This document shows positions 24,622 through 41,231 of a DNA stretch of 41,474 bases, in pieces. The notes under the pieces were generated by a model. It was not told where the DNA came from. It searched no databases and saw only the letters and a program-made list of their open reading frames with translations. The stretch is from NCBI GenBank assembly GCA_937870685.1, contig CALMZX010000131.1:1-41474 (forward strand), given 5' to 3'. Origin of the DNA: an uncultured Alphaproteobacteria bacterium. Lineage in GTDB: Bacteria; Pseudomonadota; Alphaproteobacteria; Rhizobiales; Aestuariivirgaceae. How positions within the stretch are numbered: the first letter of the stretch is position 1; each line of letters starts with the position of its first letter. The position numbers and the translations under genes are program-made.

Positions 24622-25968
24622 ATGACCCTGCGCAACACCCGCAACCTCGCCAAGTCCAACGCCCATTTCAAGAAGGCACTCACCCGCCTGCCTCTGGGTG
24701 TTGCTTCCACCTTCCGCTACTGGGGCGAGGACCGGACGATCTATGTGAAGCGCGGCAAGGGTGGCCGCACCTGGGACATGGATGACAACTGCTACGTCGA
24801 TTACCGCCTCGGTTATGGCCCGGCGATCCTCGGCTATGCCGACGACCGCGTTGATGAAGCGGCCCGCAAAGGCATGGAGGTGGGCGGCGTCTTCGCGCTC
24901 TCCACCGAGCGCGAATACATCGTCGCTGAGCGCATGGCCAAGATGGTGCCATCCGTCGAACTGGTGCGCTACTCGAACAGCGGCACCGAGGCGGTGATGG
25001 CAGCACTCCGCCTTGCCCGCGCCTACACGGGCCGCGACAGCTACATCCTCATCGAGGGCGCCTATCACGGCCTCTTTGATGCGGCCATGTGGATGGCCAA
25101 CATGGATGAATGGGACCCGAAGAGCGGCATCGAGCCGGTGAAGGTGCCCTACTCCCGCGGCATTCCGCAGGCGACGCGCGAACTCGTCCACCTCACCCCC
25201 ATGAACAATGCCCAGCGGCTGGAGGACGTGTTCAGGAAGCACGGTGACAGCATCGCCGCCATGCTGATCGAACCGATGATGGGCAACTGCTGCGCCATCT
25301 CGGCCACCACCGAATATGTGCAACTCGCCCGCCGCCTCTGCGACCAGTATGGCGTGCTGCTGATCATCGACGAGGTGAAGACCGGCTTCCGCGTGGCCAA
25401 GGGCGGCATCCAGTCGCTGCACAACGTCAAGCCCGACATCTGCACCTTCGCCAAAGCCATGGCCAACGGCTACCCGATCGCGGCCATCGGCGGGCGCGAG
25501 GATGTGATGCGCACCTTCCGCCCCGGCGGTGCCGCCCATGGCGGAACCTACACCGCGCACTCCGTCTCCATGGCCGCCGCCGAACGCTGCCTGCAGATCC
25601 TCGACGAAACGCCGGCCCTCGCCTCGCTTGCCGCCGCTGGCGAAAAACTGAAAGCGGGGATGAAGCAGGTGCTCGACCGGCGCGGCATCGTGCATTCCTT
25701 CTCCGGCCATTCCTCCATGTTCGGCCTGTTCTTCGCGCCGCAGCCGCCGGACAACTATCGCGCATGGAAGAAATCCGACTACAGCTTCTACGACAAGCTT
25801 GCGCGCCACATGCAGGACAACAACATCATCGTGGAACCGGATTCCCGCGAGCCGCTGTTCATGTGCGAGGCCCACGACCAGTCGTGCATCGATGACACGC
25901 TGCGGGCCTTCGAAACCTCGGTTGACCTGACACTGGAGCAGGTGGAAGCGGAGAAGCGCGCCTCATGA
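24622..25968 (+). CDS. Class III (glutamate-1-semialdehyde mutase-like) aminotransferase
   Basis: This 448-residue PLP enzyme opens the catabolic operon. The N-terminus has the GSA-mutase-like TRLPLGVASTFRYWGEDRTI. The PLP phosphate region is SNSGTEAVMAALRLARAYTG (118-137), the pyridine Asp lies in IIDEVKTGFR (D250), and K278 in TFAKAMANGYP forms the Schiff base. It is not HemL itself: the context is catabolic. Family members move terminal or alpha amino groups to pyruvate or 2-oxoglutarate, or shift amino groups internally. Here it probably deaminates a demethylated intermediate. The start at 24622 was chosen from the family N-terminus; an open frame back to 24484 crosses the control region. 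It overlaps the next gene by 4 nt (ATGA). Confidence 0.87.
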   Translation: MTLRNTRNLAKSNAHFKKALTRLPLGVASTFRYWGEDRTIYVKRGKGGRTWDMDDNCYVDYRLGYGPAILGYADDRVDEAARKGMEVGGVFALSTEREYIVAERMAKMVPSVELVRYSNSGTEAVMAALRLARAYTGRDSYILIEGAYHGLFDAAMWMANMDEWDPKSGIEPVKVPYSRGIPQATRELVHLTPMNNAQRLEDVFRKHGDSIAAMLIEPMMGNCCAISATTEYVQLARRLCDQYGVLLIIDEVKTGFRVAKGGIQSLHNVKPDICTFAKAMANGYPIAAIGGREDVMRTFRPGGAAHGGTYTAHSVSMAAAERCLQILDETPALASLAAAGEKLKAGMKQVLDRRGIVHSFSGHSSMFGLFFAPQPPDNYRAWKKSDYSFYDKLARHMQDNNIIVEPDSREPLFMCEAHDQSCIDDTLRAFETSVDLTLEQVEAEKRAS

Positions 25969-27581
25969 GCCGCTACGACGCCATCGTCGCGGGCGGAGGC
26001 CACAACGGCCTCGTCACCGCCTGCTACCTCGCCAGGGCGGGGCTGAAGACGCTGGTCGTCGAGAAGAATGACTGGGTGGGCGGAGCGGCCGTGTCGCGCT
26101 CGCTCCATCCCGGTTTCACCTATTCCAACTGTTCCTATGTCTCGTCGCTGCTGCGCCCCGAAATCATGCGCGAGCTGGAACTGCCGAAGCATGGCCTGCA
26201 GATCCTGCCCTATGAAGGTGGCGCAGTGTTCATGAAGGGCGGCGGCTATCTCGCCATGTACCGCGACCATGAGGCGAACCGCCGGGAGTTTGCCCGCTTT
26301 TCGCCGCGTGACGCCGAAAGCTACGACCGATACTCGCGCGACGTGCTGCGCCACTGCCGTTTCATCCGGCCGCTGCTGCTGCGCACGCCGCCTGATCCCA
26401 CGTCCTTCCGCCCGCGTGACCTTTCGGAGCTAGCCTTCCTCGGGCGCAAGCTCTTCGCCATGCCGGAGAAGGACATCTACGCCATGATCCGCTTCTGGAC
26501 CATGAGCATCTCGGACTTCCTCGACGAATACTTCGAAACGCCCGTCATCAAGGCCTACCTCGCGGTCTCTGCAATCATCGGCACGGCGCTCGGCCCCATG
26601 TCGCCAGGCTCGGCCTATGTGCTGTTGCATCACTACATGGGTGACGTTGACGGCAACATCGGTGCCTGGGGCTTTGCGCGCGGCGGCATGGGCTCGATCA
26701 CCCAGGCGCTGATGGCCTCCTTCAAGGCAGCGGGCGGCGAGGTACGCACCGGCTCGGGCATCGAGAAAATCCTCGTGCGCAATGGCCGCACCACTGGCGT
26801 GGCACTTGCCAATGGCGATGAATTCACCGCGCCCCTCGTCATCTCCAACATGGATGTGAAGCGCACCTTCCTGAAACATGTGGAGGAACGCGACCTGCCG
26901 CCCGCATTCGTGAAGAGCGTCAAACGCTTCAAGATCAGGGGCTCATCCGGCAAGGTCAACATCGCGCTGGATGCGTTGCCGCGCTTTCCCGCGCTGCCGG
27001 ATGATTCGCCCTGCATCCGCGGTGACATGCATTTCACCGATTCCATCGAGCGCCTTGAACTGGCCTATGACGACTGGAAGGCGGGGCACTTCTCGCGCGA
27101 TCCCTTCCTCGACATGATGATCCCCACGACAACCGATCCCACCATGACGCCGCCGGGCAAGCACTTCATGAGCTGCTTCGTGCAGTATGCCCCGCCCAAG
27201 ATCGAAGGCCGCGACTGGACCGACGCCGACCGCGATGCCTTCGGCCAGACGGTGCTCAACCAGATCGAAGAATATTCGCCGGGTTTCAAAAAGCTGGTGC
27301 TGCATGCCGAAGTGCGCACGCCGCGCGAGCTGGAAGCGGAAGTGGGCCTCACCGAAGGCAACATCTTCCAGGGTGAACTGACATTCGACCAGTTGCTCTT
27401 CAACCGCCCGGTGCCGGGCTACGCGCAGTACCGCTCACCCATCGAAGGCCTGTGGATGTGTGGGTCTTCCACTCACCCCGGCGGTGGCGTGATGGGAGCA
27501 CCCGGCCGCAATGCCGCTGCCGAAATCCTCCGTTCCCTGAAGAAACCTGCTGCCATGGGAGAGGCCTATGCCGTCCTGTGA
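25965..27581 (+). CDS. FAD-dependent oxidoreductase, PYROXD2/CrtI-like (first copy)
   Basis: This 538-residue flavoprotein has the FAD-binding motif VAGGGHNGLVTACYLARAG (8-26) with EK at the end of the second strand, then VGGAAVSRSLHPGF. The C-terminal FAD-binding segment is GLWMCGSSTHPGGGVMGAPG. These match the PYROXD2/phytoene-desaturase-like amine-oxidase superfamily. Such enzymes oxidise C-N or C-C bonds with FAD; none in this bacterial branch has a substrate I can name. It contains no signal peptide and is cytoplasmic. It overlaps the aminotransferase by 4 nt and the second copy by 14 nt, suggesting translational coupling and perhaps a heteromeric complex with the latter. Confidence 0.87.
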   Translation: MSRYDAIVAGGGHNGLVTACYLARAGLKTLVVEKNDWVGGAAVSRSLHPGFTYSNCSYVSSLLRPEIMRELELPKHGLQILPYEGGAVFMKGGGYLAMYRDHEANRREFARFSPRDAESYDRYSRDVLRHCRFIRPLLLRTPPDPTSFRPRDLSELAFLGRKLFAMPEKDIYAMIRFWTMSISDFLDEYFETPVIKAYLAVSAIIGTALGPMSPGSAYVLLHHYMGDVDGNIGAWGFARGGMGSITQALMASFKAAGGEVRTGSGIEKILVRNGRTTGVALANGDEFTAPLVISNMDVKRTFLKHVEERDLPPAFVKSVKRFKIRGSSGKVNIALDALPRFPALPDDSPCIRGDMHFTDSIERLELAYDDWKAGHFSRDPFLDMMIPTTTDPTMTPPGKHFMSCFVQYAPPKIEGRDWTDADRDAFGQTVLNQIEEYSPGFKKLVLHAEVRTPRELEAEVGLTEGNIFQGELTFDQLLFNRPVPGYAQYRSPIEGLWMCGSSTHPGGGVMGAPGRNAAAEILRSLKKPAAMGEAYAVL

Positions 27582-29091
27582 TGCAATCGTCATTGGTGGC
27601 GGCATCAACGGCCTTGCGGCTGCGGGCCGTCTCGCGCTTTCCGGCGCCAAGGTCACGCTGCTGGAAACTGCACCGGAACTGGGCGGCATGGCGACGCTCG
27701 CCCATCTGTGCATGGGACTTGACCCGCGTCTGGAGAAATCCCTTGCTCTTGCCGATCACGGACTGGTTTGGGCCGAACGCAATGTCAGCAGCACGGCACT
27801 TTCGCCGGATGGCAATCATATCGTTCTGAAGGGGGCCTTCGCCGAAACTGTCGAAGGGTCGCTTTCAGCGGAAGACCGCCGCGCATGGACATCCTTGCGC
27901 GACACGCTGTTGCGCAATGCCGCTCTGCTCGCCCCCTTCAAGGCGATGCCACCGCCACGCCTCGCCCGCGACCATGGCACGCCGCTGTTGGATTTGCTGC
28001 GCAACGGCCTCGCGCTACGCCGCATGGGCCGCGACAACCTGCGAGAATTCCTGCGCCTCATGCTGATCAACGTGGCGGATGTTCTGGATGATGAACTCGC
28101 AGATGACAGGCTGAAGGGCCTGATCGCCTTCGATACGGTGCTCGGCCACCATGCAGGACCGCGTTCGCCCAACTCACTGCTCGGACTCTATCACCGCATC
28201 TCGTCCGAAGTGAACGGCCAACAAGGCGCGATTGCCTTGCCCCGCGGCGGCGTGGCTGCCGTCATTGCGGCGCTCGCAGGCGCCGTCCGCGCCAGAGGCG
28301 TCACCATCCAGACAGGCGCACGGGTCAAGGCCATCACGGCAGAGGATGACCGTGTGCAGTCCGTCACGCTGGAATCGGGTGAAATCTTCACCACATCCCT
28401 TGTTGTCTCGGCCCTGCACCCAGCCACAACACTCTTGTCACTGGTGGGAGCGCCCGTGCTGGACACTGGCGTGGTGCGCAACGTCAGAAACATCAAGAGC
28501 CGTGGCAGCACGGCGAAACTCACGCTCACGCTGCAAGGCAAGCCGGACTTCCACGGCGCCGACCTGCGCTCGCGCCTCGTCATCGCCCCTTCGGTGCGCG
28601 CCGTCGAAGAGGCTTTCAACGCTGTGAAATATGGTGCCTTCTCCGAAGCCCCGGTGATGGAACTCCTGCTGCCCCAAGCCTTCTCGACGGAACCGGACCT
28701 CGGCCGCCACACCTTGTCGGCACTGGTGCAGTTCGCACCCCATGATCTCCGCATGGGCTGGGTCAAGGGCAAGCCAGCCTTCCTCAAGGCCATAATGAAG
28801 CAACTGGAACACTTTGCACCCGGCATCGGAAAGCAGGTGATTGCCGCCGACCTTCTGACGCCCCACGACATCGCACAGCACTTTGGTGCACCCGGCGGGC
28901 AATGGCATCACGCGGAGCTTTCTGTCGAGCAGATGCTGTTCCTGCGTCCGGGCGTTGGCCTTGCGCAATATGCCACTCCGGTGCGCGGCCTTTACCTCGC
29001 CAGTGCCGCCATGCACCCCGGTGGCGGCGTGAACGGCAGCGCCGGCTGGAACGCGGCAGGCCATGCCCTTGCCAAAGGCGGTGCTGCATGA
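27568..29091 (+). CDS. FAD-dependent oxidoreductase, PYROXD2/CrtI-like (second copy)
   Basis: This 507-residue paralogue of the preceding protein has the FAD motif VIGGGINGLAAAGRLALSG, followed by ETAPELGGMATLAHL, and a C-terminal GLYLASAAMHPGGGVNGSAG. It is about 30 residues shorter and clearly diverged, so it is an old duplication rather than a recent repeat. The pair keeps gene order and overlaps by 14 nt, with a GGGAGAGG Shine-Dalgarno 3 nt before the ATG. Two linked, diverged flavoproteins suggest either subunits of one oxidase or sequential steps. The substrate is unknown. Its end overlaps the next gene by 4 nt. Confidence 0.86.
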   Translation: MPSCDAIVIGGGINGLAAAGRLALSGAKVTLLETAPELGGMATLAHLCMGLDPRLEKSLALADHGLVWAERNVSSTALSPDGNHIVLKGAFAETVEGSLSAEDRRAWTSLRDTLLRNAALLAPFKAMPPPRLARDHGTPLLDLLRNGLALRRMGRDNLREFLRLMLINVADVLDDELADDRLKGLIAFDTVLGHHAGPRSPNSLLGLYHRISSEVNGQQGAIALPRGGVAAVIAALAGAVRARGVTIQTGARVKAITAEDDRVQSVTLESGEIFTTSLVVSALHPATTLLSLVGAPVLDTGVVRNVRNIKSRGSTAKLTLTLQGKPDFHGADLRSRLVIAPSVRAVEEAFNAVKYGAFSEAPVMELLLPQAFSTEPDLGRHTLSALVQFAPHDLRMGWVKGKPAFLKAIMKQLEHFAPGIGKQVIAADLLTPHDIAQHFGAPGGQWHHAELSVEQMLFLRPGVGLAQYATPVRGLYLASAAMHPGGGVNGSAGWNAAGHALAKGGAA

Positions 29092-30290
29092 AGAACGCCC
29101 AACTCCACTTCCGCCAGCCACTGCAGACAACGCCTTTCCACGCCCACACCTCCGCCGCCAACAAGCTCAACGCCTGGGCGCCCTGGGCCGGATACACAAC
29201 AGCTTTGAACTTCGGCGACGAGACCATGGAATACACGGCGCTGCGCAACCAGGCCGGACTCTACGACCTGTCGCCCATGGTGAAGTACGAGATCAGCGGA
29301 CCTGATGCGGTGCGCTATCTCAGCCGTCTGACCTTGCGTGATGTGGCAAAGCTCGCGCCCGGCCATGTACACTACACCGCGTGGTGCGACGACGAGGGCA
29401 AGCTCATCGACGACGGCACGCTTTTTCATCTGCCGGATGGCCGCTTCCGCCTGTGCTGCCAGGAACGTCATCTGCCGTGGCTGATGGACAGCGCCATCGG
29501 TTTTGATGTCCGTGTGCGCGATGAAAGCGAAGCCGTCGCCGCGCTCTCGCTGCAAGGTCCGTGCGCCTATGCCGTGCTGGCGCGGGCCGGCTTTGCCGAT
29601 GCCAAATCCCTGAAACCGTTCCAGCTGGCGGAATATCGCCTTGGCAAGTCCGGCAAGGTCATGATCTCCCGCACTGGTTTCACCGCCGATCTGGGTTACG
29701 AACTCTGGACTTCACCCGACAAGGCGCTGGAATTGTGGGACGTGCTGATGGAGAAGGGCGCGCTGCATGGCCTGCGCCCCATCGGAACCACGGCCCTCAA
29801 CATGGCCCGCATCGAGGCGGGTTTCATGATCGCCAACATGGATTTCGTCAGCGCCACAACGGCCCTGCGCCCCGACCGCACACGCTCGCCCTTCGACATG
29901 GCCCTCGACTGGATGATCGATTTCAACAAGGGCCCCTTCAATGGCCGTGCCGCCCTGAAGCGCGAGAGGGAGGCCGCCAGCACGCAATGGGCCTTCGTCG
30001 GCCTCGACATCGACGGCAACGTGGAAGCCGAGCATGCGCTCGTTTACGACAACAAGAAGCATGAAGTGGGCCACATCACAGCCGCCTTGTGGTCGCCCAC
30101 CACAAAGCGCAACATCGCGCTTGCCATGCTGCGCAGGCCTTACCACGCGGAAAAATCCGGCAATCTCTGGGTGGAGATCTACGCGCTGCGTGAGCTTGAA
30201 TATCACAAGCTCATGGTGAAGGCGGCGGTGGTGCCGCGCCAGTTCTTCAATCCCGCGCGCCGCCGTGCGACGCCGCCAGGCATGATGTGA
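29088..30290 (+). CDS. GcvT-like aminomethyltransferase (folate-dependent)
   Basis: This 400-residue GcvT-fold protein is likely to take a methyl or methylene group from an amine onto tetrahydrofolate. The GcvT pattern is visible: ALRNQAGLYDLSPMVKYEISGPDAVRYLSRL (about 50-80), then WCDDEGKLIDDGTLFHLPD, where the DD corresponds to the folate/catalytic Asp region. SLQGPCAYAVLARAGF, RTGFTADLGYELW and GTTALNMARIEAGFM follow. Relatives include the glycine cleavage T-protein, sarcosine/dimethylglycine dehydrogenase C-terminal domains and the DMSP demethylase DmdA; no flavin domain is fused here. It begins 4 nt inside the previous gene (ATGA). The start at 29088 gives a normal T-protein N-terminus. 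Confidence 0.87.
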   Translation: MKNAQLHFRQPLQTTPFHAHTSAANKLNAWAPWAGYTTALNFGDETMEYTALRNQAGLYDLSPMVKYEISGPDAVRYLSRLTLRDVAKLAPGHVHYTAWCDDEGKLIDDGTLFHLPDGRFRLCCQERHLPWLMDSAIGFDVRVRDESEAVAALSLQGPCAYAVLARAGFADAKSLKPFQLAEYRLGKSGKVMISRTGFTADLGYELWTSPDKALELWDVLMEKGALHGLRPIGTTALNMARIEAGFMIANMDFVSATTALRPDRTRSPFDMALDWMIDFNKGPFNGRAALKREREAASTQWAFVGLDIDGNVEAEHALVYDNKKHEVGHITAALWSPTTKRNIALAMLRRPYHAEKSGNLWVEIYALRELEYHKLMVKAAVVPRQFFNPARRRATPPGMM

Positions 30291-30304
30291 CAGGGAGGCT
30301 ACGG

Positions 30305-31477
30305 ATGAATCACCGCTCGTCTTTCCATCCCGCTTCGCCGATTCTGGATTTCTGCCCGCCATCCCTTCCCGCCCGCTGGTACACGGACCCTCTACACCAT
30401 GCCCGCGAACTTGCCGCCATCCAGGCGCAAAGCTGGATTTACGTGGGCCGCGTGAATGACTTGCCCCCCCTCACCTTGCGCAAGCTGGAGATCGCGGGAC
30501 AGCAACTTTTTCTCGTCAAGGACGACACCGGCAGCATCCGCTGCTTTCACAACAGCTGCCGCCACCGTGGCTCCGAACTGTGCCAACAGCATGAGCAGCG
30601 ACTGAAGGCAAAACTCATCACCTGCCCCTATCACGAATGGAGCTACGATCTCTCGGGCCGCCTCGTGCGCGTGCCGCATGTGCCGGAGACGCCGGGTTTC
30701 GACAGGCAGGCGAACGGGCTGTTCAGCGCGCATGTGACACTGTGGAACGGCTTCATCTTCGTATGCCTCGCCGCTGATCCGCCTGACTTCGCCACAGCAC
30801 CCGATCTCGGTGTGAACGCCCTCGACAACTGGCCGATGGCCGATCTCGTCACCGGGCACCGCATGACCAGCCTGCTCCAGTGCAACTGGAAGGTCTTCTG
30901 GGAAAACTACAATGAATGCCTGCACTGCCCCGGCATTCATCCCGGCCTGTGCGAGATGGTGCCGGTCTATGGCAAGGGCGTGATGAGTTCCGCAGAGATG
31001 CCGGGCTGGTCGCCGGAAGATGCCGTGGCCTCGCCGCTCAGGGATGGCGCCCGCACATGGACCGTGAACGGCAAGGCCTGCGGCGCAGAGTTCCCCAACC
31101 TCACCGAGGCGCAGCGTACGGCGGCCTATACGTTCGTGACGCTGATGCCCACCATGTACATCGTGGCGCATGTGGACTACGTGCGCGCCGTCACCATCCG
31201 CCCCGTCTCGCCCGGGGAGACGGAACTCACGGCGGAATGGCTGTTCGCGCCCGAGACACTGGCACAGCCGGACTTCGATCTTGCCAATGTGGTGGACTTT
31301 GCCGCCACCGTGATCCGCGAGGACGGTGCCGCGAGCGAGATGAACCAGCGGGGCCTGCGCAATGCGCGCTTCGAACACGGCACGCTGATGCCGCAGGAGT
31401 TCGACGTCTTCAATTTCCAGCAATGGGTCCGGCGCAAGCTGGGTGAACCCCTGGTGACGAAGGGAGTGAAGCCATGA
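30305..31477 (+). CDS. Rieske non-haem iron oxygenase, glycine-betaine-monooxygenase-like (first)
   Basis: This 390-residue oxygenase alpha subunit has a Rieske [2Fe-2S] site with Cys85-x-His87 and Cys107-x2-His110 (CRHRG, CPYH). Its mononuclear iron site is ENYNECLHCPGIHP with His207 and His212. The bridging residue before the first His is Glu204, not the usual Asp. This Glu, and the ENYNECLHCP pattern, are typical of oxygenases acting on quaternary amines (GbcA, CntA, stachydrine demethylase). Those remove an N-methyl as formaldehyde or cleave C-N bonds. EDGAASEMNQRGL near the C-terminus supplies the third ligand Asp. A GGGAGG Shine-Dalgarno is present. No reductase gene is adjacent. Confidence 0.88.
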   Translation: MNHRSSFHPASPILDFCPPSLPARWYTDPLHHARELAAIQAQSWIYVGRVNDLPPLTLRKLEIAGQQLFLVKDDTGSIRCFHNSCRHRGSELCQQHEQRLKAKLITCPYHEWSYDLSGRLVRVPHVPETPGFDRQANGLFSAHVTLWNGFIFVCLAADPPDFATAPDLGVNALDNWPMADLVTGHRMTSLLQCNWKVFWENYNECLHCPGIHPGLCEMVPVYGKGVMSSAEMPGWSPEDAVASPLRDGARTWTVNGKACGAEFPNLTEAQRTAAYTFVTLMPTMYIVAHVDYVRAVTIRPVSPGETELTAEWLFAPETLAQPDFDLANVVDFAATVIREDGAASEMNQRGLRNARFEHGTLMPQEFDVFNFQQWVRRKLGEPLVTKGVKP

Positions 31478-32664
31478 ACATCCACGTCAACGACTGGGAC
31501 CGCCGCGGCCTTCCTGCCTGGACCTATCACTCGCAGGCGCTGCTCGATCTGGAAATCAAGGAGATCCTGCTGCGCCAATGGCAGATCGTGGGTCATGTCA
31601 GTGATGTGCCGAAGGCGGGCGACTATCTTTCCTTCGACCTCGGGCCGGAGCGCGCCTTTGTGCTGCGCCAGCAGGACGGCAGCTTCCGCGCCTTCCACAA
31701 TCTCTGCCGACATCGCGGCTCACGCATCGTCACCGGCGATCAGGGCCACTGCAAGAATGCTCTTGTCTGCCCCTTCCATGGCTGGGTCTACAATTTTGAT
31801 GGCACGCTGCGCGGTGCTGCCCGGCCCGACAGTTTTGCCGATCTCGACCGGCACAAGTTCGGCCTGAAACCGGTGGAACTTGAGGTGTGGATGGGGTTCA
31901 TCTTCATCCGCTTCAGGGAAGGTCCGCAAGGCTCCGTCTCGGAACAGCTTGCGCCTTACGCCGCCGAGATTGGCGCGCACCTGCCGGAGACATTGGTGCC
32001 CGCGGGCAAACCCTGGGTGGGCGAATTGCCAGTGAACTGGAAGTCGGTGCGTGACGTTGACAACGAAGGCTACCACGTGGCCATGGCGCATCCCGCCCTG
32101 CAGGACCTCTATGGCAACACCTATGAGGACATCGACTACGGCCCGCACATGCGGGTTTCCAAGGGCACCTACCGCGAAGGTGCAGGCCGCCTGTGGAGCG
32201 TGCGCCACTATGTAAAGCAGTCCACCGGGCATTCCAACTTGCCGCGAGAAAGGCGGAGGCTCTGGGCCTACTACGGGGTGTTTCCCAACGCCGTGTTCAT
32301 CACCACGCCCGAGGCCATCCAGTTTTACCAGGAACTGCCGGTGGACGTGAACCGCTCCATCGTGCGCGGCATGATCTATCGTTACCCCAAGGAAAGCAGG
32401 CAGCAGCGCCTCGCCCGCTACCTGTCCTACCGTATTGACCGCGCCACCTATGCCGAAGATACTCAACTCGCCATCTGGTCCAATGAATCCATGAAGTCTT
32501 CGGCTTTCGACAACTTCCATCTCTCGGATCACGAGCGCTTCCTGCGCGCCCATCACGACGACCTCCGCAAACTCCTGCCCGTGCTCACCCTCGACACGCC
32601 GCCCGCGCCCGAACGCATGGCGGAGGTGAACGCGGCACTCGGCGCAGGAAAGACCGGAACCTGA
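31474..32664 (+). CDS. Rieske non-haem iron oxygenase (second)
   Basis: This 396-residue paralogous oxygenase starts 4 nt inside the first one. Its Rieske site is Cys78-x-His80 and Cys99-x2-His102 (CRHRG, CPFHGW). The mononuclear site is DVDNEGYHVAMAHP with bridging Glu198 and ligands His201 and His206. The expected third ligand Asp near the C-terminus is not obvious: the corresponding helix reads WSNESMKSSAF, so Glu may take its place. Low similarity to the first copy suggests different substrates, for instance successive demethylations, or a mixed alpha-subunit trimer. The electron donor must come from elsewhere, as no ferredoxin reductase lies in the window. Confidence 0.87.
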   Translation: MNIHVNDWDRRGLPAWTYHSQALLDLEIKEILLRQWQIVGHVSDVPKAGDYLSFDLGPERAFVLRQQDGSFRAFHNLCRHRGSRIVTGDQGHCKNALVCPFHGWVYNFDGTLRGAARPDSFADLDRHKFGLKPVELEVWMGFIFIRFREGPQGSVSEQLAPYAAEIGAHLPETLVPAGKPWVGELPVNWKSVRDVDNEGYHVAMAHPALQDLYGNTYEDIDYGPHMRVSKGTYREGAGRLWSVRHYVKQSTGHSNLPRERRRLWAYYGVFPNAVFITTPEAIQFYQELPVDVNRSIVRGMIYRYPKESRQQRLARYLSYRIDRATYAEDTQLAIWSNESMKSSAFDNFHLSDHERFLRAHHDDLRKLLPVLTLDTPPAPERMAEVNAALGAGKTGT

Positions 32665-32708
32665 AAGACGGAACCAAAGCCGCAGCACAACAACGGAAAG
32701 GGAGAGAC

Positions 32709-33815: not shown

Positions 33816-33840
33816 TGCGAAGTCAAAGCGGGGGCAGAGC

Positions 33841-34968
33841 ATGACGGCAAGCAATCCTGCAACCCCGCAACCGGACTTCATCCGCATTGAAGGCGTCACC
33901 AAGAGCTTCGGCACCTTCAAGGCGGTGAACAATGTCTCGCTCAACATCAGCAAGGGCGAGCTTTTCGCCCTGCTCGGCGGTTCCGGCTGCGGCAAGACAA
34001 CCCTGCTGCGCATGCTCGCCGGTTTTGAAGCGCCGACCGAAGGACGCATCTTCATTGACGGGCAGGACATGGCGGGTGTTCCCGCCTATGACCGGCCCGT
34101 CAACATGATGTTCCAGTCCTACGCCCTCTTTCCGCACATGACCGTGGCAAAGAACGTGGGTTACGGCCTCAAGCACGAGAACATGACGCAAGGCCAGCGC
34201 GACGACCGCGTGAAGGAAATGCTCGGCCTCGTGCAGATGGCTCACCTCGCTTACCGCAGGCCGCACCAGCTTTCGGGTGGCCAGCGCCAGCGCGTGGCAC
34301 TGGCACGCTCCCTCGCCAAACTGCCGAAATTGCTGCTGCTCGATGAACCGCTCGGCGCGCTGGACAAGAAGCTGCGCGAGCACACCCAGTTCGAGTTCGC
34401 CAACATCCAGTACAAGCTCGGCATCACCTTCGTGGTGGTGACGCATGACCAGGAAGAGGCGATGACGCTGGCCTCGCGCATCGCCGTGATGGACCAGGGC
34501 GTGATCCGCCAGATCGGCTCGCCGTCCGACATCTACGAACATCCCAACAGCCGCTTCGTCGCCGACTTCATCGGCTCCATCAACATGGTGGATGGGGAGG
34601 TGGCACGGGTGGAGGCAAACGGCGTGGAGGTACTGTGCCCCACGCTGGGTGAGCCCGTCTTCGTGGCGCCTGCAAACAGTCACCGGCAGGGCGACAAGGT
34701 CTCCCTCGCCTTCCGCCCCGAGAAAGTTGCGATCTCCCGCCGGAAACCCGCTGCGGCAATAAACGTGCTGAAGGGCAAGGTGCTGGACTTCGGCTATTTC
34801 GGCAAGGACTCGCTCTTCCGCATCAAGTTGGCCACGGGGCGCGTGCTCTCCGTCAACGCCGTCAACACGGCGCGCATGTCGGCGGAGCAGGCGGTGGCGA
34901 CGTGGGAGGAAGACGTCTATCTCAGCATCGCGCCGGAAGCCGCCATGCTGTTCGGGGCGGACTCATGA
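33841..34968 (+). CDS. ABC transporter ATP-binding protein, PotA/PotG-like
   Basis: This 375-residue ATPase has Walker A GGSGCGKTT (46-54), Q-loop MMFQSYALFPHM, signature LSGGQRQRVALARSL, Walker B LLLLDEPLGALD, and switch His in VTHDQEEAM. A C-terminal TOBE-type domain (about 290-375; RPEKVAI, then FGYFGKDSLFRIK) fits the polyamine/spermidine-putrescine subfamily. It powers uptake through the two permeases that follow. A G-rich Shine-Dalgarno lies 26 nt downstream of the binding-protein stop. It overlaps the first permease by 4 nt. Confidence 0.94.
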   Translation: MTASNPATPQPDFIRIEGVTKSFGTFKAVNNVSLNISKGELFALLGGSGCGKTTLLRMLAGFEAPTEGRIFIDGQDMAGVPAYDRPVNMMFQSYALFPHMTVAKNVGYGLKHENMTQGQRDDRVKEMLGLVQMAHLAYRRPHQLSGGQRQRVALARSLAKLPKLLLLDEPLGALDKKLREHTQFEFANIQYKLGITFVVVTHDQEEAMTLASRIAVMDQGVIRQIGSPSDIYEHPNSRFVADFIGSINMVDGEVARVEANGVEVLCPTLGEPVFVAPANSHRQGDKVSLAFRPEKVAISRRKPAAAINVLKGKVLDFGYFGKDSLFRIKLATGRVLSVNAVNTARMSAEQAVATWEEDVYLSIAPEAAMLFGADS

Positions 34969-35879
34969 GAAGCGCCACCCGCGATTGGTTCAACCGGCGC
35001 GGCTGGCGCGATGTGATCATCGCCTCGCCCTATCTCTGGCTTGTGGCCTTCTTTCTCGTGCCCTTCATCATTGTGATTGTGATGAGCTTTGCCAAGACGG
35101 CAACGCAGTCACCACCCTTCGCCTTCCTGCCGGACTGGCCCTTCATCCGTTTCGAAACTTACCAGCGCCTTTTCACCAGTAGCCTCTACATCCGCGCAGG
35201 CGCCATCTCGGTCTACAACGCTGCCGTCGCGACGGTGCTGTGCCTGCTGATCGGCTATCCCATGGCGCTGGCCATCACACGCGCCGGCAAGTCTTTGCAG
35301 CGCCTCTTGCTCATGCTGGTGATCCTGCCCTTCTGGACCTCCTTCCTGCTGCGCGTCTATGCTTGGATCGGCCTCATGGGCAAGAACAGCTGGTTCAACA
35401 AGGCGCTGACCTCGGCCTACAACGTGTTTGTTCCCACGAGCTGGGAACTGCCGGGCATACAGATGATGAACACCAACTTCGCCGTGGTGCTGGTGATGGT
35501 CTATTCCTACCTGCCATTCATGGTGCTGCCGCTCTATGCCAACTTGGAAAAGCTTGATACCACGCTGAATGAAGCGGCCATGGACCTTGGCTCGCGCCGC
35601 TGGGAAGTGTTCCGCGACATCACCCTGCCGCTCTCCATTCCCGGCATCATCGCAGGCGGCCTGCTGGTGTTCATTCCCGCCATGGGTGAACTGATCATCC
35701 CCAGTCTTGTGGGCAACGCCGGCGACCCGATGATCGGCCGCGTCATCCAGCAGGAGTTCGGCCAGAACCGCGACTGGCCCATGGCCTCCGCCGTTGCCGT
35801 GGCCCTGCTGCTCATGCTCGTTGTGCCGCTGATGCTCTACAACCACTTCGAGGCAAAAGCGCAGAAGGGAGCCGCGTGA
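34965..35879 (+). CDS. ABC transporter permease, PotB/PotH-like
   Basis: This 304-residue integral membrane protein has about six predicted helices: ASPYLWLVAFFLVPFIIVIV, AAVATVLCLLIGYPMALAI, LLLMLVILPFWTSFLLRVY and later segments. The cytoplasmic EAA loop reads EAAMDLGSRRWEVFRDITLPLSIPG, which docks the ATPase. The PFWTSFLLRVYAW sequence is typical of PotB/PotH. It starts in an ATGA overlap with the ATPase gene and is followed immediately by the second permease. Confidence 0.93.
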   Translation: MRSATRDWFNRRGWRDVIIASPYLWLVAFFLVPFIIVIVMSFAKTATQSPPFAFLPDWPFIRFETYQRLFTSSLYIRAGAISVYNAAVATVLCLLIGYPMALAITRAGKSLQRLLLMLVILPFWTSFLLRVYAWIGLMGKNSWFNKALTSAYNVFVPTSWELPGIQMMNTNFAVVLVMVYSYLPFMVLPLYANLEKLDTTLNEAAMDLGSRRWEVFRDITLPLSIPGIIAGGLLVFIPAMGELIIPSLVGNAGDPMIGRVIQQEFGQNRDWPMASAVAVALLLMLVVPLMLYNHFEAKAQKGAA

Positions 35880-36719
35880 ATGAAACAGCGCTCCACCTTC
35901 CTCTTCAGCATGATGACCTTCGGCCTTGCCTTTCTCTACGTGCCCATCTTCTCCATGGTCTTCTTTTCCTTCAACAAGTCACGGCTTGCCACTGTCTGGG
36001 GCGGCTTCTCCACGCAGTGGTACGGCAAGCTCTTCAGCAACAGCCAGGTGATTGACGCGGCCATCCTCTCGCTCAAGATCGCGGTCCTGAGCGCCACCTT
36101 CGCCACCATTCTCGGCACCATGGCCGGACTGGCACTGGCCCGCTTCCGCCGCTTCCGGGGCCGTGCCCTGCTCTCCGGACTGGTGACGGCGCCGCTCATC
36201 ATGCCGGAAGTGATCACCGGCATTTCCTCGCTGCTGCTCTTCATCATGATGGCGGAGTGGATCGGCTGGCCGGGCCAGCGCGGTTTCACCACCATCACCA
36301 TCGCCCACATCACCTTCTCCATGACCTATGTCACGGTGATTGTGCAGTCCCGCCTCTCGGCCATGGACATGTCGATTGAGGAAGCGGCGATGGATCTGGG
36401 TTCGCGGCCATGGCAGGTGCTGCGCGACGTGACGCTGCCCATCATCTCGCCTGCCATTCTCTCAGGCTGGCTTCTGGCCTTCACCATTTCTCTGGACGAC
36501 GTCGTCATCACCAGCTTCACCACCGGGCCCGGCTACAACACGCTGCCCATGCTCATCTGGAGCAAGGTCAAGTTGGGTGTGACACCGGACATCAATGCGC
36601 TGGCCACGGTCATTGTCGCCGTCGTTGCCATCGGTGTCGCCATTTCCGCCGTCGTCCTGACGCGCGCCGACCGCAGGCGCGAACGCGACATCCAGATGGC
36701 CATAGCCGCGAACAAGTGA
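35880..36719 (+). CDS. ABC transporter permease, PotC/PotI-like
   Basis: This 279-residue second permease has about six helices. Its N-terminus (FGLAFLYVPIFSMVFFSFNKS) is typical of PotC/PotI. It has the coupling loop EAAMDLGSRPWQVLRDVTLPIISP and the SLDDVVITSFTTGPGYNTLP segment conserved in polyamine permeases. It starts directly at the stop of the first permease, so the two should be made in equal amounts. Confidence 0.93.
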   Translation: MKQRSTFLFSMMTFGLAFLYVPIFSMVFFSFNKSRLATVWGGFSTQWYGKLFSNSQVIDAAILSLKIAVLSATFATILGTMAGLALARFRRFRGRALLSGLVTAPLIMPEVITGISSLLLFIMMAEWIGWPGQRGFTTITIAHITFSMTYVTVIVQSRLSAMDMSIEEAAMDLGSRPWQVLRDVTLPIISPAILSGWLLAFTISLDDVVITSFTTGPGYNTLPMLIWSKVKLGVTPDINALATVIVAVVAIGVAISAVVLTRADRRRERDIQMAIAANK

Positions 36720-36725
36720 ACAGCC

Positions 36726-36971
36726 ATGGCATGGACCGCGGAAGATGACATTCAACTGGCCTTTCTCCGGCTGTCCCCTGGCGAAAAGGATGGTGGCCGC
36801 GCCCGCTATGCGGCGGCCATGCACTTCAACCGCAATCACCGTCTTTCCCACGCCGCCCTCGAAATTTTCCGCATCCTGGCCAAGGAGGATGGCGCAGACC
36901 CCCGCGACCTTCTGGCCGCACGCGGCCTTGCCCATGAATTCGACAGCCTGACGAACGGACACCGATCATGA
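36726..36971 (+). CDS. Small operon protein, 81 residues, unknown function
   Basis: This short ORF sits between the importer and the TMADH-like gene, 6 nt after the permease stop and overlapping the next start by 4 nt (ATGA). This argues that it is translated. The protein (MAWTAEDDIQLAFLRLSPGE...) is predicted soluble and mostly helical: residues about 30-72 hold HRLSHAALEIFRILAKEDGA and DPRDLLAARGLAHEFDSL. It has no cysteine, signal peptide or recognised motif. It could be a small subunit or assembly factor for one of the operon enzymes. I cannot assign a family. Confidence 0.6.
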   Translation: MAWTAEDDIQLAFLRLSPGEKDGGRARYAAAMHFNRNHRLSHAALEIFRILAKEDGADPRDLLAARGLAHEFDSLTNGHRS

Positions 36972-38986
36972 CCGCAGATTCCCGCTTTGCCCCGCTCTTT
37001 GAACCTGTTCGCATTGGCTCGGTGACGGCGCCGAACCGCTTCTACCAGGTGCCGCACTGCACCGGCATGGGCTACACCTATCCGCAGACACTGGCGGCGA
37101 TGCGCGAGGTGAAGGCCGAAGGCGGCTGGGGCGTGGTCAACACCGAGTATTGCTCCATTCATCCGTCCTCGGACGATCTGCCAGCTCCCTTCTGCTCGCT
37201 CTGGGACGAGGGCGATGTGCGCAACATGGCGGCCATGACAGCAGGTGTGCACAGGCACGGCGCACTTGCCGGTGTGGAGCTGTGGCATGGTGGCCAGCGC
37301 GCCGCCAATCACCAGACCCGGCTTCCTGGCCTTGCCCCCACCTCGATGCCGGTGAGCGGCGCGCCGTGGCAAAGCCAGAAGATGGATGCGAGCGACATCC
37401 GGGCCTATCGCCAGTGGCATGCCGCCGCCGTGCGCCGCGCCCTGCAGGCCGGCTTCGACATCATCTATGTCTATGGGGCACACACCTATCTGCTGGCGCA
37501 ATATCTCGATCCGCGCGTCAACCAGCGCGACGACGACTACGGCGGCATGATCGACAACCGTTCGCGGCTCTACCGCGAAGTGATTGCCGAGACGCGCGAC
37601 ATCCTGAAGGACAAAGCGGCACTCGCAACCCGCGTGGAAGTGGTGGACGAGGATGAAACAGGAAAGGCACAACGGACCGAACTGCTCGCCAGCATCGCCC
37701 CGCATGTGGACCTGTTTGATGTGACAATCCCGGATTATTCCAAGGAAATGGGGGCGTCGCGCTTCTTCAAGGAAGGTTCCCTCGAAGCCGATATCGCCCA
37801 TGTGAAGCAGGTCACGGGCAAGCTGGTGGTTTCGGTCGGGCGTTTCACCAGCCCCGAGACCATGCTGTCGCAGGTGAAGCGAGGGATCATTGATCTCGTG
37901 GGGGCGGCGCGTCCTTCGATTGCCGATCCCTTCCTGCCCACGAAGATCCGCGAGGGCCGCTACGATGACATCCGTGAATGCATCGGTTGCAATCTCTGCT
38001 ACGCCAACGACATGATCGGCGTGCCGCTCCGCTGCACCCAAAATCCCAGCATGGGCGAGGAATGGCGGCGCGGCTGGCACCCCGAGCGCCTGCGCATCGC
38101 CACCCGCAAGGAACAGACGCTGGTGGTGGGCGCGGGGCCAGCCGGCCTTGACGCGGCGCTGACGCTGGCACGCCGTGGCGTACCGGTGATGCTGGCGGAA
38201 GCCGCGCGCGATCTGGGTGGCCGCGTCACTGCCGAGTCCCGCCTGCCCGGCCTCAGTGAATGGGCCCGCGTGCGCGACTGGCGCGTGCACCAGATCAGCA
38301 AGCAGCAGAACATCAGCGTGTTCCGCGAAAGCCCGATGACCGTGGAAGACATCCACGCCAGCGAAGCGAAGCATGTGGTGCTGGCAACAGGTGCCACCTG
38401 GCGGCGCAACGGTCTCGGCAAGTCCTCGCCCGTGCCCATAGCCAGCTTTGAAGATGCCCGCACCTTCACGCCCGATGATATCATGGCGGGCAAGCGTCCT
38501 GCGGGCCCGGTCGTGATCTTTGACGATGACCATTACTACATGGCGGCGGTGATCGCGCTGCTGCTGGCAAGCGAAGGCTTTCCCGTGACCTATGTCACCG
38601 CCGAAGGAACGGCTGCGGCGTGGTCCAGCCATACCTCTGAGCAAATCCGCACCCACAGCGCCCTGATCGCGGCAGGCGTCACCATCATTGTGAACAAATG
38701 GGTTTCGGGTTTGCAGCCGGGAGAGGCGGAGTTGACGTGCGTCTATTCCGGCCAGACTCGGCGGATCGCATGTGGCGGATTCGTGCCTGTGACGTCACGC
38801 GCCCCCAATGATGCGCTCTGGAATGTGCTGAAGGATGCGGGCGATCTGACGGTGCATCGCATCGGAGACTGCAAAGCCCCCGGCATCATCGCGCAGGCTG
38901 TTTATGACGGGCACCGCTTCGCGCAGGAGTTTGACCTCGATGAAGCGGCAGCGACGGCACGCCGCGAACGTGTGGTGGCGGGATGA
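36968..38986 (+). CDS. Trimethylamine dehydrogenase-like iron-sulfur flavoprotein
   Basis: This 672-residue protein has the architecture of Methylophilus trimethylamine dehydrogenase (TMADH): an Old-Yellow-Enzyme barrel (1-345), a 4Fe-4S site and two nucleotide-binding domains (from about 382, VVGAGPAGLDAALTLARRG). Cys31 in YQVPHC corresponds to the Cys that binds FMN covalently, and Tyr61 to Tyr60. YVYGAH supplies Tyr169 and His172, and C338-x2-C341-x2-C344-x11-C356 binds the cluster. The TMA-binding Trp264 and Trp355 and the catalytic-triad Asp267 of TMADH are not visible; the 251-267 segment is about three residues shorter. So it probably oxidises another secondary or tertiary amine. TMADH gives electrons to ETF; no etf genes are nearby. 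Confidence 0.9.
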   Translation: MTADSRFAPLFEPVRIGSVTAPNRFYQVPHCTGMGYTYPQTLAAMREVKAEGGWGVVNTEYCSIHPSSDDLPAPFCSLWDEGDVRNMAAMTAGVHRHGALAGVELWHGGQRAANHQTRLPGLAPTSMPVSGAPWQSQKMDASDIRAYRQWHAAAVRRALQAGFDIIYVYGAHTYLLAQYLDPRVNQRDDDYGGMIDNRSRLYREVIAETRDILKDKAALATRVEVVDEDETGKAQRTELLASIAPHVDLFDVTIPDYSKEMGASRFFKEGSLEADIAHVKQVTGKLVVSVGRFTSPETMLSQVKRGIIDLVGAARPSIADPFLPTKIREGRYDDIRECIGCNLCYANDMIGVPLRCTQNPSMGEEWRRGWHPERLRIATRKEQTLVVGAGPAGLDAALTLARRGVPVMLAEAARDLGGRVTAESRLPGLSEWARVRDWRVHQISKQQNISVFRESPMTVEDIHASEAKHVVLATGATWRRNGLGKSSPVPIASFEDARTFTPDDIMAGKRPAGPVVIFDDDHYYMAAVIALLLASEGFPVTYVTAEGTAAAWSSHTSEQIRTHSALIAAGVTIIVNKWVSGLQPGEAELTCVYSGQTRRIACGGFVPVTSRAPNDALWNVLKDAGDLTVHRIGDCKAPGIIAQAVYDGHRFAQEFDLDEAAATARRERVVAG

Positions 38987-39606
38987 ACGCGGAGGCTGCC
39001 ATCACGCAACTGCTGCGGGAGATCGAAACCTATCTCGCGGCCTTCGATCATGCAGGCGTGCGCGCGGTGCGTGATGGTCTGGCGCGCTGGGGCAATGGTC
39101 CGCACAAGACGCTGAGGCCGCGCACGCTTCCCGCTTGCGGACACCTGCCAGTGGCACTTGCAGCCATGGGAAAGCATTCGCTGGCGCAGGCCATAGAGGC
39201 TGCCCTGCCCCATCTCCGCTGGATCACCTATGATGCCTACCCGCGCGACGAAATCGGGGCAGCCTTTGCCGACGGCCATGCCTTTGCATCGCTGGTGGGT
39301 GAAGGGGCATTCCGTGATGCCGATGATTTCGATCTCGGCCTGTTCGTGATTGGCCCCGACATCCTCTACCGTGATCATCATCACGCGGCCCCGGAACTCT
39401 ATGCGCCGCTGACCGGGCCGCACGGCTGGCGCTTCCTGCCTGACAAGACATTTCACACCAAACCTGCCGATGAGCCCGTCTGGAACGAGCCCTGGGCACC
39501 GCACGCCACCCTGACCGGCGCAACGCCCTTCCTTTGCATCTTCGGCTGGACCCGCGACGTGAGCAGTCCGGCCAAAGTGATCTTTACCGACGAGGAAAAA
39601 TCATGA
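38983..39606 (+). CDS. DMSP-lyase-family cupin (DddQ/DddL-like)
   Basis: This 207-residue protein has an N-terminal helical part and a C-terminal cupin. Residues Y129, H134, E138, Y140 and H174 have the same order and almost the same spacing as the metal ligands and tyrosines of DddQ (Y120, H125, E129, Y131, H163). YRDHHHAAPELYAPLTGPHGW is the first cupin motif. DMSP lyases split dimethylsulfoniopropionate to acrylate and dimethyl sulfide; other family members act on unknown substrates. In this operon of amine demethylation genes it may perform a beta-elimination on a related onium or amine compound. It starts and ends in ATGA overlaps. The family call is good; the reaction is inferred. Confidence 0.75.
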   Translation: MNAEAAITQLLREIETYLAAFDHAGVRAVRDGLARWGNGPHKTLRPRTLPACGHLPVALAAMGKHSLAQAIEAALPHLRWITYDAYPRDEIGAAFADGHAFASLVGEGAFRDADDFDLGLFVIGPDILYRDHHHAAPELYAPLTGPHGWRFLPDKTFHTKPADEPVWNEPWAPHATLTGATPFLCIFGWTRDVSSPAKVIFTDEEKS

Positions 39607-41231
39607 CGGCCGACACGATCATCATCAACGGTACGGTGCTCACCATGGAACGTTTGGCCACCCCGGCCGGGGCGCTGGCCATCCGCGACGGGCGCATCCT
39701 CGCCGTGGGAAGCAACTCGGAGGTTCGCGCGCTTGCCAGTTCACGCACCCGCATCATCGACGCCAAAGGCCGCGTGGTGTTGCCCGGGTTTCAGGACACA
39801 CACATCCACCTTCAGGATTCCGGCTATCACTACGGTTTCAATGCCGTGCTTGATGAATGCCGCAGCATCGCGGAATTGCAGGAAGCACTTGCCACCTTTG
39901 CCCATGCATCAAAGTCGGCGTGGGTGCGCGGCGTGGGCTGGTACACCGGGATTTTCACCGACGCCAATCTGACCCGCGACGTGCTGGACAAGGTGGTGCC
40001 GGACCGGCCCTGTTTCATCCTCGCCTCCGATGGCCACAACGCCTGCCTGAACAGCAAGGCCTGTGATCTTCTGGGAATCCGCAAAGGTGTTGATGACCCA
40101 CCCAACGGCCACTTCGTGCGCGATGGCAAAGGTGTGCCCACCGGCATGCTGCACGAGGATGCCATCGACTGGGTGACCCAGCGCATGCCGACCGTCACTG
40201 ACGATGAATACGCCGGTGGCGTGCGTTTCGCGCAAGGTCTGTGCAACCGCCACGGCATCACCGGTGTGCTGGATGCCTCGGTCAATGAACGCCATGCCCG
40301 CGTTTACCAGCGCCTCGCGGATCAGGATGCGCTGACAGTCCATGTGGCCGCGACTGCGAAGGTGGAACCGCACGAGAAAACCGAGGATGCGCTGGAGCGG
40401 GTGAAATCCCTGCGCGCCAGTTGCCGGGGCGATGTCTTCAAAATCCACTCAGCCAAGTTCTTCCTTGATGGGGTGCTGGAGAACCGCACCGGTGTGATGC
40501 TGGAACCCTATTCCGACAGCATCGGTGGCAACGCCCCCCTGATGTTCGGCCACAACCAGGTGAAGGACCTGTTCACCGCCTTCGATGCAGCGCGTTTCCA
40601 GATCCACGTCCACGTGATCGGCGATGGCGCGTTGCGGTCGGCACTCGACGGTCTGCAGGCGGCGCGCGAAGTGAACGGAGCATGGCCCAGCCTGCACCAA
40701 CTGGCCCATGTGCAGTGCCTGGATCCGGCAGACCTGCCGCGCTTCCGAGAGTTGGGTGCCATGGCCAACCTCCAGTCACTTTGGGCGCGGCATGAGCCCT
40801 CGGTCACTGATGTCGCCCTGCCCATGGTGGGAGAGGAACGGGGTAAGTGGATGTATGCCTTCCGCAGCCTGATCGACGCAGGCGCACCCTTCTGCCTGTC
40901 CAGCGACTGGGGCGTTTCCACGCTCAATCCCTTCCCCATCATGGAAACGGCCGTCACACGCCAGCCGCCGCGCAGGAACGGTGACCATCCGGTCTTCCTG
41001 CCTGAACAGCGCATGGACATCGCTGAATGCCTGCGTGGCTACACCGTCAATGCCGCGGCAGCTGCCTGGCGCAGCGAGACCACGGGCACGCTTTCACCCG
41101 GCAAATCCGCCGACGTGATCATCCTCGACCGGGACATCCGCAATTGCAGCGTCTACGATATCGGCGACACGGAGGTGCTGCTCACCCTGTTCCGGGGCAA
41201 GGCCGTCCATATGGTTGGCGACTACGCCTGA
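39603..41231 (+). CDS. YtcJ/NfdA-like metal-dependent amidohydrolase
   Basis: This 542-residue amidohydrolase-superfamily (family 3) enzyme has an N-terminal strand domain (TIIINGTVLTMERL) and the metal-binding HTHIHLQDSG at about residues 80. The DGVLENRTGVMLEPYSD region, HVHVIGDGAL, LAHVQCLDPADLPRFRELG and SSDWGVSTLNPFP carry the remaining His/Asp ligands. GKSADVIILDRDI closes the protein. Relatives include N-substituted formamide deformylase (NfdA) and YtcJ, which hydrolyse N-formyl or amide bonds. As the last gene of the operon it may remove a formyl, formimino or acyl group left by oxidation of an N-methyl. It overlaps the cupin by 4 nt. No terminator was seen before the tRNA gene. Confidence 0.88.
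   Translation: MTADTIIINGTVLTMERLATPAGALAIRDGRILAVGSNSEVRALASSRTRIIDAKGRVVLPGFQDTHIHLQDSGYHYGFNAVLDECRSIAELQEALATFAHASKSAWVRGVGWYTGIFTDANLTRDVLDKVVPDRPCFILASDGHNACLNSKACDLLGIRKGVDDPPNGHFVRDGKGVPTGMLHEDAIDWVTQRMPTVTDDEYAGGVRFAQGLCNRHGITGVLDASVNERHARVYQRLADQDALTVHVAATAKVEPHEKTEDALERVKSLRASCRGDVFKIHSAKFFLDGVLENRTGVMLEPYSDSIGGNAPLMFGHNQVKDLFTAFDAARFQIHVHVIGDGALRSALDGLQAAREVNGAWPSLHQLAHVQCLDPADLPRFRELGAMANLQSLWARHEPSVTDVALPMVGEERGKWMYAFRSLIDAGAPFCLSSDWGVSTLNPFPIMETAVTRQPPRRNGDHPVFLPEQRMDIAECLRGYTVNAAAAAWRSETTGTLSPGKSADVIILDRDIRNCSVYDIGDTEVLLTLFRGKAVHMVGDYA

Follow-up and report, generated by a model that had tools for sequence, protein, structure and literature searches.

A modular operon of an uncultured alphaproteobacterium that may import and demethylate a methylated amine cation

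Introduction

Several described systems resemble parts of a block of 14 genes at positions 24622-41231 of contig CALMZX010000131.1 (GenBank assembly GCA_937870685.1), from an uncultured alphaproteobacterium of the Aestuariivirgaceae; the window, here, is the whole stretch of 41,474 nucleotides that was analysed. These systems are the group V Rieske systems, Stc2 for stachydrine, CntAB for carnitine and GbcAB for glycine betaine; the C-terminal half of trimethylamine N-oxide (TMAO) demethylase, with dimethylglycine oxidase and dehydrogenase; histamine and trimethylamine dehydrogenases; the PotFGHI putrescine importer; and the cupin lyases of dimethylsulfoniopropionate (DMSP), DddK, DddQ, DddL and DddW. 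The block encodes, in order, a class-III aminotransferase (AT), two flavoproteins (PX1 and PX2), a GcvT-fold protein (GCV), two Rieske oxygenases (RO1 and RO2), an importer made up of a solute-binding protein (SBP), an ATPase (ATPc) and two permeases (TM1 and TM2), an 81-residue protein (S81), a flavoprotein like histamine and trimethylamine dehydrogenases (OYE), a DMSP-lyase-like cupin (CUP) and an amidohydrolase (AMH). A TetR-family repressor gene (TetR) is divergent from it.

How does the locus compare with these systems? RO1 and RO2 share with the group V enzymes the bridging Glu and the tested ligands, and RO1 also the CxxC of some of them; in the locus, however, the oxygenases form a tandem pair, RO2 has no CxxC, the operon holds no reductase, and the small protein S81 is a putative partner. 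GCV has the GcvT fold and the Asp pair of the TMAO demethylase C-terminal half and of the dimethylglycine enzymes, and adjoins amine-oxidase-type flavoproteins as they do, but it is free-standing and its flavoproteins are CrtI/CrtO-like. OYE matches histamine and trimethylamine dehydrogenases over its full length, with the Cys for covalent flavin mononucleotide (FMN) and the cluster cysteines kept, yet its pocket is mixed, with Tyr61 and Tyr257 beside an Asp348 like that of histamine dehydrogenase, and its gene is optional. The importer is like PotFGHI in its SBP family and its set of ATP-binding cassette (ABC) genes; SBP differs from PotF chains at two places: Trp275 stands in place of the Phe of 3ttm, and Asp224 in place of the His of 3ttm and 7oyv. 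CUP shares the HxHxxxExY...H site of the cupin DMSP lyases, though it is distant from them, stands in an amine operon and, in relatives, is often fused to S81.

We propose that the block is one catabolic operon, governed by a BetI-like repressor, which takes up a methylated amine cation (in our view most probably a polyamine or diamine bearing methyl groups), strips off its N-methyl groups step by step and its terminal amine, and passes the one-carbon units to folate; we give this proposal a rough probability of 0.42. Gene content, gene order, conserved catalytic residues, the palindrome and co-occurrence were observed directly, and from families and conserved residues we infer the substrate and the activities. 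No description of the whole gene set was found in searches of an open-access library (most subscription papers and bioRxiv preprints lay outside this scope), and open-access work on homarine, stachydrine, N-methylputrescine and methylated polyamines likewise gave no matching set. If the proposal is right, alphaproteobacteria carry a kit, versions of which occur in other soil and water bacteria, that degrades a nitrogen compound with methyl groups along a route that we did not find named. It would also give a function to S81, a protein family without a model; it would pose the question of how Rieske enzymes of the RO1 and RO2 type receive electrons; and it would allow a direct test of natural C-N bond cleavage by DMSP-lyase-like cupins.

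Results and discussion

Gene order and conservation

The earlier note on this DNA had described 14 tightly packed plus-strand genes with a divergent repressor. Coordinates and overlaps were derived anew and agree with it: among the 14 open frames (Table 1) eight junctions overlap by 4 bases and one (PX1/PX2) by 14, the remaining gaps being 44, 25, 0 and 6, so that no gap exceeds 44. Family scans also bore out the protein families that it had named, with the refinements given below.

For the wider survey, genome contigs were scanned with RO2; at least 595 stretches matched, at least 558 of them encoding a relative, and the best 80 loci were kept. This sample is centred on RO2 by design, its near relatives are not independent, its flanks are 10 kb, some loci are cut by contig ends, and at least six of the 80 (L046, L048, L069, L071, L077 and L089) come from genomes already in the genus survey described below. 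Thirty-nine loci are of type I, defined by a PotF-like importer in the order RO2-SBP-ATPc-TM1-TM2, as in the window, one locus having S81 between RO2 and SBP; 36, of type II, carry portions of an alternative version of the kit, and five have no type. Among the 39 type I loci RO1 is found in 32, S81 in 34, the cupin in 26, TetR in 27, AT in 17, PX1, PX2 and GCV in 15 each, and AMH in 12. The 36 type II loci have a different ABC set (36), a different aminotransferase (35), a different binding protein (29), TetR (27), PX1 (23), PX2 (16), GCV (2) and S81 (2), many clusters running past the 10-kb flank. Whole type II sets, with RO2, the ABC set, aminotransferase, TetR, PX1, PX2, GCV and S81, occur on Shinella and Rhizobium plasmids; a Parasedimentitalea plasmid has the type II set and genome G605 a compact one, each with no S81 match. 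A Fuscovulum plasmid carries the type I set without OYE. Records with the kit come from Aestuariivirga, Defluviimonas, Tabrizicola, Shinella, Ensifer, Mesorhizobium and Rhizobium, and 14 of 199 order-level genomes encode PX1 at 65% identity or more, eight of these also having RO2. In three Sphingomonadales loci (L050, L051 and L052) RO2 and the importer are the sole matches in the stretch, RO1 and S81 being unmatched.

Within the genus, a cupin query against 61 genomes (the window's own and 60 relatives) gave matches in 32, and in 16 besides the window's own a match covered most of the cupin at 48-73% identity. Seventeen stretches from these 16 genomes, several of them short contigs, were compared. 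Five (L033-L036 and L038) are TetR-divergent clusters of RO1-RO2-importer-cupin only; L037 adds AT, and L031 adds AT-PX1-PX2-GCV. The L030 cluster includes AT, OYE and AMH, and L044 and L045 hold nearly the whole set split over two contigs. L029 has AT-PX1-PX2-GCV, a different ABC set, the cupin and AMH, with no Rieske gene within 20 kb. The arrangement is thus more than chance, because the order recurs in many genomes, and the gene set is modular rather than a fixed fourteen. The expectation that the genes would prove to be co-conserved therefore held for their order and failed for the 14 as an obligate set.

Might such modularity mean that two or more functions share the operon, a unit of Rieske enzymes, importer and S81 and another of AT-PX1-PX2-GCV, OYE, cupin and amidohydrolase, acting on different but related amines? 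RO1-RO2-importer-S81-cupin stands alone in 7 of the 39 type I loci, and AT-PX1-PX2-GCV is found elsewhere with an importer and no close RO2, as this explanation would have it. We nevertheless think it unlikely, as the same kind of palindrome precedes whichever unit comes first, and both the type I and the type II layout combine parts of the two units. Order, co-occurrence, conserved residues and the palindrome, taken together, argue for a single import-and-demethylate unit.

The repressor gene and a nearby palindrome

TetR has TetR_N and TetR_C_6 domains and scores 91.3 bits against the BetI equivalog model of NCBIfam, whose cut-off is 201.3; it is BetI-like, as the earlier note had it, and not BetI. 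A palindrome pattern was taken from the window and then scored on the 52 divergent TetR spacers among the 80 RO2 loci. The best site scored at least 10/14 in 52/52 spacers, against 7% of 2600 base shuffles, and the predicted operator is the window's only site scoring at least 11/14. The palindrome stands before AT, RO1, RO2 or PX1, whichever gene is first in the locus. It is weaker in type II, mostly 10-12/14, where a chance score of 10 is likelier because many spacers are about 1 kb long. Conserved order and conserved palindrome thus uphold the view that the block is one regulated catabolic unit. In the window's genome the 19-base operator core has one exact match and one match with three mismatches, and a reversed control pattern has 0; the second operator-like site (contig C130) lies within an open frame and was taken as chance. 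The BetI1 site of Ruegeria pomeroyi given in passages of PMC12442346, ATTGACG-CGTCAAT, is a related palindrome; the BetI2 boxes in those passages do not fit the consensus palindrome.

Probable import of a cation

The best solved matches of SBP are polyamine and putrescine binders, and its score against the PotF equivalog is 354.5 bits (cut-off 636). Among 43 distinct type I relatives, Trp38, Asp40, Asp224, Trp243, Asp246, Trp275 and Tyr313 are present in 43/43, and Asp277 in 42; at position 185, 40 have Asp and three a gap. These positions, which from PotF we take to line the pocket, would make it acidic and aromatic, and their conservation speaks for the importer of a cationic amine that had been proposed. 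A substrate with two or more positive charges is suggested by this pocket together with the histamine dehydrogenase-like OYE and the class-III aminotransferase.

Proposed demethylation

The bridging Glu is found in RO1 (Glu210) in 36/36 distinct relatives and in RO2 (Glu198) in 97/97; the Rieske Cys and His and the tested ligands (His, Asp) are kept in the same 36/36 and 97/97. The CxxC is found in 36/36 relatives of RO1 and 0/97 of RO2. The best solved match of RO1, 3vca, is presumably Stc2. Passages of PMC10952381 describe the CxxC beside the iron site as a feature unique to some group V quaternary-ammonium Rieske enzymes.

GCV keeps Asp108, Asp109, Arg195 and Glu243 in 34/34 distinct relatives, and we take the Asp at 108/109 to be a folate-site residue. 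With RO1 and the PX1/PX2 pair, GCV points to a quaternary or tertiary N-methyl group on the substrate, and the conservation of the RO1 motifs and of the GCV Asp pair supports N-demethylation as the chemistry expected of these families. The window's genome (3.3 Mb) has 13 GCV_T (PF01571) matches, including the operon's own and one fragment. Since nine of them lie in frames of 820-1060 residues, this genome may well encode many folate-linked demethylases.

Does the substrate carry a carboxylate as well? It could be a methylated amino-acid betaine or a carnitine-like carboxylate (gamma-butyrobetaine, trimethyllysine, homarine or similar), with import, N-demethylation, folate transfer and deamination unchanged, and we regard this as quite possible. 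RO1 and RO2 are nearest to carboxylate-betaine enzymes, 3vca and carnitine monooxygenase, and cupin DMSP lyases, in passages of PMC12582016, use a carboxylated onium compound. Two relatives of the AT-PX1-PX2-GCV type (L147 and L150, each with AT or PX1-PX2-GCV and no close RO2) have an acyl-CoA-dehydrogenase-like gene, and L147 an acyl-CoA-ligase-like gene also. On the other side, several acidic residues occupy the importer pocket, SBP aligns to polyamine binders, and the window's operon is without CoA genes.

That the locus is a known pathway for glycine betaine, stachydrine, carnitine, choline, TMAO or DMSP, enlarged by further genes, is far less credible, even though single enzymes resemble members of such pathways. 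Among the best 25 matches of each of ten operon proteins and TetR, none reached a curated cut-off: besides the BetI value given above, the GbcA equivalog of NCBIfam gave 164.5 and 131.7 bits (cut-off 670), TMAO demethylase 258 of 1100, with GCV covering the second half of the model only, and the DMSP demethylase (DmdA) equivalog 120.7 of 410. The literature search described above, too, gave no match.

How would the oxygenases receive electrons? None of the operon genes encodes a Rieske reductase with flavin and plant-type ferredoxin domains. A narrow motif search of the 80 loci for plant-type ferredoxins gave 23 frames, by eye all shadow frames and none in the window, other ferredoxin types lying outside the search. 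The window's genome (92% complete) has one PF00175 protein, of 324 residues, by eye an Fpr-like reductase. On these grounds a general ferredoxin may serve as donor to RO1 and RO2. On a Rhizobium sp. SL42 plasmid, genes for a MocE-type ferredoxin, a flavin adenine dinucleotide (FAD) oxidoreductase and an inositol dehydrogenase (L129:117-3491) lie next to the type II cluster; the first two are a possible electron donor there.

Proposed removal of the terminal amine

AT Lys278 is present in 23/23 distinct relatives. OYE had been labelled as like trimethylamine dehydrogenase. It proves closer to histamine dehydrogenases (3k30, E 3e-189; 6de6, 4e-175) than to trimethylamine dehydrogenase (1djn, 9e-152). 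Cys31 (6-S-cysteinyl FMN), the catalytic Tyr169 and His172 and the cluster residues Cys338 and Cys341 are kept in 6/6 relatives, as is Asp348, and Tyr257 in 5/6; Tyr61 we take to correspond to Tyr60 of trimethylamine dehydrogenase. In the numbering of N. simplex, passages of PMC10180351 give the histamine dehydrogenase pocket as Gln65, Trp267 and Asp358; OYE Asp348 is at the place of Asp358, whereas Tyr61 and Tyr257 take the places of Gln65 and Trp267. The same passages report that enzymes of this type also take agmatine, putrescine, spermidine and other amines.

S81 and the cupin

S81 has 81 residues and no cysteine, and is free-standing in the window; as the window's S81 is without cysteine, we rejected it as a ferredoxin. 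It has no match in Pfam, NCBIfam or the PDB, and its family has weak, scattered matches only. Of the 26 type I loci with a cupin, 24 (23 and L121) encode S81 and the cupin as a single open frame, with S81 as the N-terminal domain; L046 and L048, the remaining two, have OYE between S81 and the cupin, an arrangement shared with the window. S81 stands without a cupin match in eight type I loci, and a further five lack any S81 match. In type II, S81 sits at the end of PX1-PX2-GCV. Among 199 genomes of the order S81 was found in eight (three genera) and RO2 (E up to 1e-90) in 14, all eight lying within the 14; among 385 genomes of the class S81 was found in the window's genome alone and RO2 in eight. 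Absences of S81 in these scans are soft, as the protein is so short that part of the first-look candidates only were scored. We infer that S81 may be a partner domain of both RO2 and the cupin.

On a tree of cupins the window's protein falls among unfused cupins, with four state changes. Two of the nine rows scored as unfused are mislabelled or doubtful (L121 is fused and L032 is at a contig end), so that the tree gives no clear direction, and OYE may or may not have been inserted between the halves of an older S81-cupin fusion.

The metal site of the cupin, HxHxxxExY and a second His, is intact: His134, Glu138, Tyr140 and His174 are kept in 36/36 distinct relatives and His132 in 35/36. The DddK site described in PMC12582016 has the same pattern, and that paper reports that DddK can add amines to acrylate, a reaction opposite to the C-N cleavage that we propose for CUP. 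Might CUP be a true DMSP lyase, and the operon one mainly of sulfonium turnover? Its PF16867 match is above the cut-off and its metal site is that of the lyases, but solved DMSP lyases are only distant (best profile E 2e-10), there is no NCBIfam match, and its partner genes belong to families of amine enzymes and polyamine importers; of all the explanations weighed here we hold this one the least probable. At its fullest, our proposal would be a new aerobic route for methylated polyamines, in which a cupin of DMSP-lyase fold breaks a C-N bond, so that an N-substituted beta-alanine derived from a 3-aminopropyl arm is split into acrylate and an amine, and S81 is a new small subunit serving both the cupin and a reductase-less Rieske pair; in this full form it is speculative and rather improbable.

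A second DMSP_lyase-like cupin is encoded in the window's genome (C63:14640-15119; L173:7506-8141), 37% like CUP. Second copies at 34-41% occur in many same-genus relatives, with a tandem pair in G029 (L032).

A possible pathway

The methylated-cation proposal can be set out in six steps. The cation would enter through the PotFGHI-type importer. A quaternary or fully alkylated nitrogen would be oxidised by RO1, and by RO2 with S81 as its partner. PX1 and PX2 would then oxidise the leftover N-methyls of the tertiary and secondary amines, GCV handing the carbon to tetrahydrofolate. Loss of the terminal amine, through AT, OYE or both, would leave an aldehyde for oxidation by enzymes whose genes lie elsewhere. 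By beta-elimination the cupin would turn an N-substituted beta-alanine into acrylate plus an amine; this C-N lyase role, which the cupin possibly has, is the boldest part of the scheme. Last, AMH would hydrolyse an amide-type side product. The earlier note had placed AMH in an NfdA/YtcJ type; its sole family match is Amidohydro_3, and NfdA-type deamidation is a candidate activity only.

Several observations weigh against this proposal. The main doubt is that the substrate may have a carboxylate too, to which the CoA-type genes of L147 and L150 point, and PotF-like proteins may bind other cations. Most relatives are without some of the 14 genes, so that a single 14-gene chain is unproven. Only 3 of the 39 type I loci have OYE, one of them (L091) on the opposite strand; the Tyr61 of OYE is kept in 3/6 relatives, and the Shinella cluster has an OYE from another branch, at 27%. 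The nearest models to AT are GntE and GSAM, with scores below both cut-offs, and the type II aminotransferase differs from AT, matching the PRK07036 model at 692 bits (cut-off 618). RO2 occurs without S81 in 6/14 genomes of the order and 7/8 of the class. Among the 14 operon genes there is no aldehyde dehydrogenase gene, and the lack of a reductase gene has been noted above.

Features and neighbouring genes

Table 1. Features of the locus, in positions of the window
Feature	Position	Strand	Description	Basis or remark
TetR	23775..24455	-	divergent BetI-like repressor, TetR_N + TetR_C_6	family scan
Predicted operator	24508..24527	unstranded	TTGATTGACAGTTCAGTCAG	13/14 against TTGANTGANNNNTCANTCAA
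AT	24622..25968	+	class-III aminotransferase	GntE and GSAM models nearest, below their cut-offs
PX1	25965..27581	+	FAD flavoprotein, amine-oxidase/CrtI/CrtO-like (PYROXD2-type in the earlier note)	family scans
PX2	27568..29091	+	second flavoprotein, of the same kind as PX1	family scans
GCV	29088..30290	+	free-standing GcvT-fold protein	TMAO demethylase C-terminal half nearest
RO1	30287..31477	+	Rieske oxygenase, bridging Glu and CxxC	GTG start; best solved match 3vca
RO2	31474..32664	+	Rieske oxygenase, bridging Glu, no CxxC	profile nearest carnitine monooxygenase 6y8j
SBP	32709..33815	+	PotF-like solute-binding protein	family scans, solved-structure matches, pocket residues
ATPc	33841..34968	+	ABC transporter ATPase (PotG-type by context)	family scan
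TM1	34965..35879	+	ABC permease 1 (PotH-type by context)	family scan
TM2	35880..36719	+	ABC permease 2 (PotI-type by context)	family scan
S81	36726..36971	+	81-residue protein, family without a model	cupin N-terminal domain in most cupin-bearing relatives
OYE	36968..38986	+	histamine/trimethylamine dehydrogenase-like flavoprotein	family scan, solved-structure matches
CUP	38983..39606	+	DMSP-lyase-like cupin (PF16867)	family scan; PF16867 cut-off passed
AMH	39603..41231	+	Amidohydro_3 hydrolase	family scan; the only family match

Beyond TetR, on the minus strand, are an aminotransferase-V gene and a phosphoglycerate-dehydrogenase gene, which we read as serC and serA, and a gene for tRNA-Gln lies downstream of AMH.

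Two apparent fusions were not accepted: the PX2-GCV frame of L152 holds the first part of PX2 only, and the AT-PX1 frame of L150 is without any AT match. A TetR-Rieske frame about 35% similar to RO2 is present in both L146 and L149, two PX1 clusters first read as Rieske-free. In each, a single open frame (L149:4728-6509, plus strand; L146:12832-15081, minus strand) joins a BetI-type TetR (TetR_N + TetR_C_6) to Rieske and Ring_hydroxyl_A domains and shares its contig with the PX1 cluster, in two genomes; such a fusion of repressor and oxygenase would be unusual.

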